A stretch of DNA of 64,000 nt from Candidatus Saccharimonadota bacterium (lineage in GTDB: Bacteria; Patescibacteriota; Saccharimonadia; Saccharimonadales; Saccharimonadaceae), in NCBI GenBank assembly GCA_017533605.1, contig JAFWKF010000001.1, positions 62,001 through 126,000 on the forward strand. The letters run 5' to 3'. The notes beneath the pieces were generated by a model that was not told where the DNA came from, made no database searches, and worked only from the letters and a program-made list of their open reading frames with translations. Shown here piece by piece: positions 8,720 through 61,418 of the stretch. The position numbers were made by a program, and so were the translations under genes. Position 1 is the first letter of the stretch, and each line of letters starts with the position of its first letter.

Positions 8720-10162
8720 TTAAAATAGCGACTCGTAATATAATTTTAGTTCTTCGCCGATAAATTCGTCTTTATCGTAGATTTGTTCTAGCTCTTTTAA
8801 GAACTTAGGGGTTTGACGCTCTAAGCGCGCCTGGCGGTACTCTTCGTATTTGATGGTTTCGGATTCGGAAAGGGTGTTGGGGTAGTTACGACCTTTATAA
8901 TGCAGCAAAAGTTCTGGTAGGCGCTCATCGGTGAATTCGGGGTGAAAATCTGCTAGTCTGGCGGGTTCGGTGGTTCTGACTTTGGCGACTTTGGCGCGGT
9001 CTGGGTCGTTTAAAAAGCCATCATAAAGAGCAGCTTCTGGCTCCAAGGCAGGTGGAAATTCCGGCCTGTTTTCGTTTTCCTCACGCATAGTTTCGGCAAA
9101 GTCTGGGTGAGAAAGTAAAATCTTTAGGTTTTTCTCGGTGGTTTCTTTAGTCAAACCAATTTTAGACCAACCATCGCCGGAGTCTAACACGGAAAGAGGA
9201 GCAACGGCGGGGCATTTGTTAAAACAAAGTTCCTTGACAATTGGATAAAAACTCCGGGCGGGTCCTGATGGGGCGGGTCCTGACCTCGCATTTTCCCCCA
9301 TTTCGCCTGAGGGCTCAACGGGGGTCCCCCCAGCTCGGCCACCCGCCTCAGCGTCTGAACTCCCGCCGAGTAGTTTATCCAGATTGTAGCGCAGATCAAA
9401 TACGAGTATGTTGCCGTTGCGGGAGCTAGTGAGGGGGAAGGCGACAGTGGTTTTGTTAAACTCTGAAGGATATCGGCCGGAGGCATAGACGAATGGTTGC
9501 TTGTCGTCTAAATTAACCAGTTTTTTGACTGCATTTTTTTCGCGCATTTTAAAGAGAAAGTCGTAGAGTTTGGGCTGTTTTTCTTTAATTAGCTTAGCTA
9601 CCGCGATGGTGGCATAGACATCGCTCAGGGCGTCGTGGGCGTGTTCGTGCGAAACGCCGTTTAGTTTAGTGATAAGCTCTAGGCGGTTGGTGGCTTTGCC
9701 GTCTTCGGTGACAGGCCAGTTAATTCCCTCTGGTCTGAGTGCGCGGGTGAGACGCACGACGTCTAAAATATCCCAGCGGCTGCGACCGTCTTTCCACTCC
9801 CATTCGTAGGGGTCGTAGAAATTGCGCCAAAGTGTGGCGCGCATAAATTCGTCGTCAAAACGGACTGTGTTGTAACCCACGGCGATAGTGTTCGGAATAA
9901 AGATTTCTTCCGTGACATATTTACAAAACTCGGCCTCACTGATGCCTTCGCGCAGGGTTTCTTGTGGAGTTATTTTGGTGACCATAATGGCATAGGGGCT
10001 AGGCAAAACTTCGCTGGTCATTTTAACCAGGATATTAACCGGTTCGCCAATTGGTTCTAAGTCTAGATTGGTACGTTGGCCGGCAAACTGCATGATGCGA
10101 TCATCCCTGGGGTTCAGGCCACTGGTTTCTAGGTCATAAAAGAAAAAGGTTTTGTCATCCAT
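8720..10162 (-). CDS. sbcB: Exodeoxyribonuclease I
   Basis: A 480-residue 3'-5' single-strand DNA exonuclease of the DEDDh class, acting in recombination and mismatch repair. DLET at residues 10-13 gives the first two acidic ligands. VGYNTVRFDDEFMR gives the third, and HAHDALSDVYATI gives the His/Asp pair. The NKCPAV block of the SH3-like region is recognisable near residue 310. Between them, about residues 268-302 are an Ala/Gly/Pro-rich, GC-rich stretch encoded by a palindromic repeat, inserted without breaking the frame. The gene starts six bases after TGCTATAAT (10169-10174) directly behind the terminator of the upstream gene. Confidence 0.9.
   Translation of the reverse strand: MDDKTFFFYDLETSGLNPRDDRIMQFAGQRTNLDLEPIGEPVNILVKMTSEVLPSPYAIMVTKITPQETLREGISEAEFCKYVTEEIFIPNTIAVGYNTVRFDDEFMRATLWRNFYDPYEWEWKDGRSRWDILDVVRLTRALRPEGINWPVTEDGKATNRLELITKLNGVSHEHAHDALSDVYATIAVAKLIKEKQPKLYDFLFKMREKNAVKKLVNLDDKQPFVYASGRYPSEFNKTTVAFPLTSSRNGNILVFDLRYNLDKLLGGSSDAEAGGRAGGTPVEPSGEMGENARSGPAPSGPARSFYPIVKELCFNKCPAVAPLSVLDSGDGWSKIGLTKETTEKNLKILLSHPDFAETMREENENRPEFPPALEPEAALYDGFLNDPDRAKVAKVRTTEPARLADFHPEFTDERLPELLLHYKGRNYPNTLSESETIKYEEYRQARLERQTPKFLKELEQIYDKDEFIGEELKLYYESLF
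9255..9347. repeat. GC-rich palindromic element, copy A, inside sbcB
   Basis: The core 9272-9347 is bounded by GGCGGGT and ACCCGCC inverted ends and contains GCATTTTCC and GGGGGTCCCCC. Just outside it, 9256-9270 is a near-copy of 9271-9285 (GGGCGGGTCCTGAyy), a 15-base, five-codon tandem duplication. The copy at 61334-61413 shares CGGGTCCTG, GCATTTTCC, GGGGGnCCCCC and the inverted ends in the same order on the opposite strand. The base composition is far richer in G+C than the surrounding gene. Confidence 0.7.
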
Positions 10163-61306: not shown

Positions 61307-61333
61307 AATTATGATTATAACACAGAATTACAT

Positions 61334-61413
61334 GGACGGGTGACGGGCATGGAGGGGGTCCCCCAAAATTGCCGTCAATTTTGGGGGAGGAAAATGCCCG
61401 ACAGGACCCGTCC
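61334..61413. repeat. GC-rich palindromic element, copy B, intergenic
   Basis: An 80-base element with perfect eight-base inverted ends (GGACGGGT / ACCCGTCC), an inner GGGCAT / ATGCCC pair and a central CCCCCAAAATTG-CCGT-CAATTTTGGGGG hairpin. It fills the gap between rpmA and the UPF0104 gene. No T-run follows, so it is not a standard terminator. It is related to the copy inside sbcB (9255-9347). Confidence 0.75.
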
Positions 61414-61418
61414 AGGGT

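Follow-up and report, generated by a model that had tools for sequence, protein, structure and literature searches.

The insert within the exonuclease I gene sbcB of this Saccharibacterial genome is very probably a copy of a mobile, non-autonomous hairpin that is translated and tolerated by its host protein, analogous to the palindromic elements of Rickettsia. We analyzed a 64,000-nucleotide stretch of DNA (C1:62001-126000 of genome G000), referred to below as the window. The original prediction that a palindromic repeat lies in frame inside sbcB was confirmed: the insert encodes a Gly/Ala/Pro-rich stretch at about residues 269-302 and leaves the reading frame unbroken. Two copies had been recognized at that stage; the fuller picture is of a genus-wide family that makes recurrent use of the same protein loops.

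Table 1. Features of the window, with positions counted from its first nucleotide.
Feature	Position	Strand	Evidence
sbcB, exonuclease I, 480 aa; host gene of the insert	8720..10162	minus	ORF, Pfam, structure matches by sequence and fold
Hairpin element in sbcB, in frame, about residues 269-302	9267..9352	minus (= gene sense)	R1 covariance model, 67 bits, E 3.1e-11 (own-genome search; this copy is among the ten that built R1)
15-base tandem repeat of the element's 3' end (CAGGACCCGCCC in gene sense)	9256..9285	minus	13/15 identical, overlaps the element
Intergenic copy of the same family, between two minus-strand ORFs (349 aa, 90 aa)	61330..61417	plus	R1 model, 85.7 bits

The host protein contains the Pfam domains RNase_T and Exonuc_X-T_C and resembles exonuclease I structures both by sequence and by fold. 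An AlphaFold2 model generated from an alignment of 26 sequences (mean pLDDT 83.9) matched exonuclease I from E. coli and from Methylocaldum along its length. D10, E12, D103, H176 and D181 were invariant in the alignment, in keeping with an exonuclease I active site. Values of pLDDT below 50 occurred only at residues 230-235 and 269-302, the latter being the insert. As modeled, the protein keeps the exonuclease I fold, and its insert is predicted to be disordered.

The sbcB copy corresponds to G000:C1:71267-71352. The interval originally assigned to it (9255-9347) was right to within a few bases, although its start took in a duplication of the element's end. The 15-base tandem duplication noted at this border is real, with units at 9256-9270 and 9271-9285; CGGGTCCTG, found at 9259 and 9274, occurs three times in the window versus 0.11 times expected from shuffling. 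The duplication is not an independent feature, being a repeat of one end of the element itself. At other loci too (L020, L007, L103, L108), full copies have a partial copy of one end beside them, which suggests nested insertion or end duplication. The second copy in the window, placed at 61334-61413 and taken for the same element, does belong to the same family, but its correspondence with the sbcB copy is limited to the ends, the helices and the loops rich in purines. Of the copies in this genome, the one most closely related to that in sbcB is C5:12345-12430, which is intergenic and near-identical to it. Pattern and DNA searches of this draft genome (593 kb, 6 contigs) already showed many further copies, and R1 identified 14, ten of which built the model. 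Neither of the outcomes named beforehand as contrary to the prediction was found: the genome does hold further copies, and rather than all related sbcB genes having a linker of unrelated DNA, most relatives' sbcB genes have no insert.

R1 was derived from a ten-copy alignment that folds into three nested helices, in which 11 of the 24 helix pairs have changed on both sides. Covariation was 0.394, compared to 0.136 ± 0.022 in column shuffles and ≤0.13 in slid controls. The anatomy of the element was described from 167 non-identical copies; ends common to the family are GGGTGRC...CAGGACCC. These form an outer helix of nine pairs whose inner GGGT/ACCC is nearly fixed, while the outer five pairs vary in sequence and are complementary in 77-98% of copies; beyond them pairing is at background. 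The outer helix is followed by an asymmetric joint with a purine mismatch that is A.G in 112 copies, G.A in 31, A.A in 5 and G.G in 5 (p ~5e-22, without correction for the relatedness of copies). Inward of this joint lie a second helix with strong covariation, then a purine-rich joint, and finally an apical hairpin whose length differs greatly between copies. Among 2384 helix cells, G.T pairs (32) were not commoner than A.C pairs (53). The missing G.T excess argues against selection on the transcript of that strand, and the swap between A.G and G.A argues for recognition of a folded single strand; together, with the proviso that related copies are not independent, they suggest that folded single-stranded DNA may be the form recognized. 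No Rfam 15 model matched the element up to E = 1.

Several variants of this structure were observed. The apical hairpin has been lost from a few intergenic copies. Short forms of 52-59 nt without it occur at L109, L115, L126, L130, L299:4250 and L304:4162, and comparison of orthologues shows that the deletion lies between the flanking G tracts. Eight copies in genome G033 (L052, L066, L082, L083, L084, L094, L106, L114) have very similar interiors and differing outer arms that are complementary within each copy. These near-identical copies would fit an origin of the arms from target DNA, but as a general rule this lacked support: in G005 conserved pairs (AAGG..CC) lie outside the variable ones, which hence are part of the element. 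A reading of the 5' end as half of a tRNA was dropped when the 3' half did not fit.

Copies of the element are either intergenic or in frame inside conserved genes, in both orientations. Among the first 119 copies, 67 were in long open frames (49 with the element in sense, 18 antisense), and with further loci the total was 101 of 178 (71 sense, 30 antisense), both totals being upper bounds because they include spurious frames, such as one antisense at the start of miaA and another that continues out of EF-P into a TlyA-like gene (genes assigned by eye). Core length, measured between the conserved ends, was 1 modulo 3 for 73 of the 95 copies in open frames (56 of the 65 sense ones) versus 29 of 72 intergenic copies (Fisher p 2.5e-6). 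The frame that reads a conserved TGA was used only by copies with TGG in its place (L077, L079). Insert-bearing proteins that scored above NCBIfam cut-offs included TopA, ArgS (with two inserts), IleS, YchF, QueA, PriA, MurB, MnmA, Obg, TsaE, PheT, TruB, Tgt and UvrB, and in a family scan at least one copy in genome G035 lay inside a FemX-like gene. Among intergenic copies, a TATAAT box was present within 30 nt on the 3' side of 12 of 72, mostly at a narrow distance (for example L034, L038, L065, L076, L096, L116 and L126), versus 3 of 72 on the 5' side.

Comparison of the flanking protein segments grouped the open-frame copies into 56 sites. About 19 of these, two spurious groups being left out, were used in at least two genomes, often by different subtypes. 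In SbcB, a DegT-type aminotransferase, QueA, Obg, PheT and MnmA, the same site is occupied in both orientations, a sign that the insertions arose independently. Loop reuse is clearest in SbcB. Its linker after DLRYNLEE is 9-16 residues long in 30 of the 73 genes measured; seven species carry the R1 element there, in sense in the window, G009 (L193) and L202, and antisense in G004 (L199), L208, L215 and L230. Ten more species have other strong palindromes in this linker: L149 and, with fold z-scores of about -5 to -12, L174, L176, L178, L186, L200, L211, L214, L217 and L221. In L149, which scored 25.8 bits with R1, and in L214, a GGGTG..CAGGACCC end core surrounds a different interior (by eye). 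Several palindrome families thus share the SbcB linker as a landing site; eight long linkers were without a strong palindrome.

Within the genus, a group of Nanosyncoccus-like Saccharibacteria, R1 matched 78 of the 147 genomes searched, with up to 25 copies in each. Of 60 relatives searched, those with copies were 16 of the 35 further members of the genus and a single genome from a different family of the order. Named loci carrying the same sbcB gene belong to Candidatus Saccharibacteria, largely from animal gut and rumen, including Candidatus Nanosyncoccus alces. Among 240 genomes sampled across the phylum, 12 had matches, some with 4-5 copies. Most inspected loci in other Patescibacteria families keep the GGGTGRC...CAGGACCC core and have long, different apical parts; these matches are weaker, their E-values are rough, and phylum-wide kinship is likely rather than settled. 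Divergent copies in G043, a genome of another family (L056, L135, L136, L137), lie within unique longer inverted repeats of the flanking DNA (by eye), as if inserted into the loops of terminator-like hairpins.

Inheritance of the element between close species was evident in four genomes (G171-G174) that share many copies at orthologous sites, with a mean identity of 0.94 for the element versus 0.92 for its flanks. Real length differences among these orthologous copies were confined to intergenic ones. A search for empty sites exact to the base found none: in sister species the site carries the insert as well or a different palindrome, or its loop has diverged. Target-site duplications gave no signal, the element's boundaries being drawn without an empty site to fix them. 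A second palindromic repeat of ~150 bp (TGCATAATTCATCAATAT...GCGGAGCAATGTGATAAAATC...) was observed at sites where sister species carry the R1 element (L310:301-506, L332:17929-18096, L322:5350-5517), in one case in frame in TruB.

We infer from these data that the element transposes, and that the unit recognized by the moving machinery is the folded single strand. The conserved ends form the 9-bp outer helix with its asymmetric inner joint, and inside them come the second helix, the purine-rich joint and the variable apical hairpin. Copies would land at many places, and those in coding DNA would persist where their length keeps the frame, where the frame used has no stop and where the site is a loop. 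The host protein would gain about 30 disordered residues and keep working; the inserts are probably translated and near-neutral.

Other accounts of the sbcB insert fit these observations less well. The least probable, an ordinary low-complexity linker grown by local slippage that resembles a palindrome by chance, could draw on the variation of this linker in all species, on the several long linkers without a strong palindrome and on the tandem repeat at the linker's edge. It is refuted by the copies elsewhere in the genome, 14 in all and one of them (C5:12345) intergenic and near-identical, and the same covarying structure recurs in the SbcB of seven species. It is also very unlikely that the element is absent from the protein, either removed after transcription as a tiny intron-like unit or ribozyme or skipped by ribosomes. 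A strong conserved secondary structure with non-canonical pairs inside essential genes would speak for such processing, but the length filter and the open frames would then be needless, and the frame that reads the conserved TGA is used only by copies with TGG. Moreover, about 30% of the copies in open frames face the other way, so that their transcript is the other strand, and G.T pairs do not exceed A.C pairs.

Two further alternatives concern the means of movement. The element, an imperfect hairpin present in many intergenic and intragenic copies, could be a REP moved by a REP-associated Y1 tyrosine transposase of the IS200/IS605 type. We give this little credence, since Y1_Tnp (PF01797) was absent from all copy-bearing genomes among 36 of the genus and present in only one, which is copy-free, in a search whose controls gave matches. 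REPs are also 20-40 bp long and have an unpaired GTAG or CGTC tag (PMC3733652), whereas the R1 element is ~55-107 nt long, has an internal bulge and two inner helices, and lacks such a tag. A SINE-like origin, in which a structured RNA is copied back into the genome by reverse transcriptase, is unlikely, if less so than the REP or removal accounts. The covariation of a folded strand, including the A.G/G.A swap, would suit it, and reverse transcriptases occur, patchily, in 23 of the 36 genus genomes. However, none was found in G000, G004, G029 and G033, drafts that are incomplete and may have lost the enzyme, which hold 14, 14, 11 and 9 copies; nor does this origin agree with the lack of a G.T excess or of an Rfam match. 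No mobilizer was identified in searches that covered the Y1 and RVT_1 families. A non-autonomous mobile hairpin, translated where it falls in a coding frame, is the explanation we prefer.

In-frame palindromes are established in Rickettsia and Wolbachia, and in-frame MITE fusions in other bacteria (PMC2229807, PMC10969869, PMC4224334). Like these RPE and WPE elements, the R1 element is short palindromic DNA with many copies and several families per genome, lies in frame in conserved genes, forms disordered or loop inserts and has no assigned transposase (PMC2229807, PMC10969869, PMC4224334); priA is a target of both WPE-like inserts and the R1 element. Three features by which RPE-like elements are recognized are present: a multi-copy palindrome of ~100 bp in coding and non-coding DNA, in-frame placement in conserved genes and insert-free orthologues (sbcB of most relatives, where the linker is short). 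The analogy to Rickettsia drawn in the original prediction is borne out for behavior, that is, for several families of short palindromes that sit in frame within housekeeping genes. The R1 element differs in phylum and in structure, uses both orientations and several frames, and reuses the same loop in many species; we liken the systems by behavior and claim no homology.

Other repeats share some of these traits. CGTC-tagged REPs, which include RPE-4 and RPE-6, are also palindromes with intragenic copies and no dedicated transposase (PMC3733652), but their stems are of 8-9 bp and their loops of 4-5 bases, and their CGTC tag is unpaired, whereas the R1 element, usually 80-107 nt long, contains a conserved bulge and two inner helices. 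Bacterial MITEs (Correia/NEMIS, ERIC, RUP) are likewise non-autonomous, have inverted ends and make in-frame fusions; terminal inverted repeats, by which MITEs are recognized, are provided in the R1 element by its outer helix. It is set apart from them by the covariation of purine mismatches inside its ends; a target duplication, looked for at approximate boundaries, and a parent IS were not found. The GC clusters of yeast mitochondria are GC-rich mobile palindromes in a small AT-rich genome, with constrained stems and merging and partial units (PMC4478555), but they belong to mitochondria, lie mostly between genes and have short direct repeats on either side. PARCELs are translated palindromic DNA (PMC2996958), as the R1 element appears to be; they form 25-residue amphipathic tandem repeats in ORFs without assigned function, many of them membrane-targeted, whereas the R1 element forms single inserts in enzymes. 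We found no earlier report of such elements in Saccharibacteria or Patescibacteria in the open-access literature, and one may exist elsewhere.

The R1 elements make up a new family that is structurally well defined, unusually broad and recurrent in its targeting of loops. More tentatively, and short of an even chance in our estimation, Patescibacteria may carry widespread folded-DNA mobile elements recognized through a conserved bulged hairpin with an exchangeable G.A mismatch, and moved by an enzyme other than a Y1 transposase or a reverse transcriptase encoded in the genome; streamlined genomes with little intergenic space would then reuse protein surface loops as landing sites, which unrelated families of palindromes use as well. 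Rickettsia and Wolbachia are the best-known hosts of in-frame 'selfish' palindromes, and the Saccharibacterial family is apparently independent. It provides a large dataset for finding how such elements move, and a caution for annotators and modelers, since many Saccharibacterial enzymes contain acquired disordered inserts. With the same loops of SbcB, QueA, Obg, PheT, MnmA and other proteins hit in different species and in both orientations, nature has in effect tested again and again where a protein can take up a new segment.
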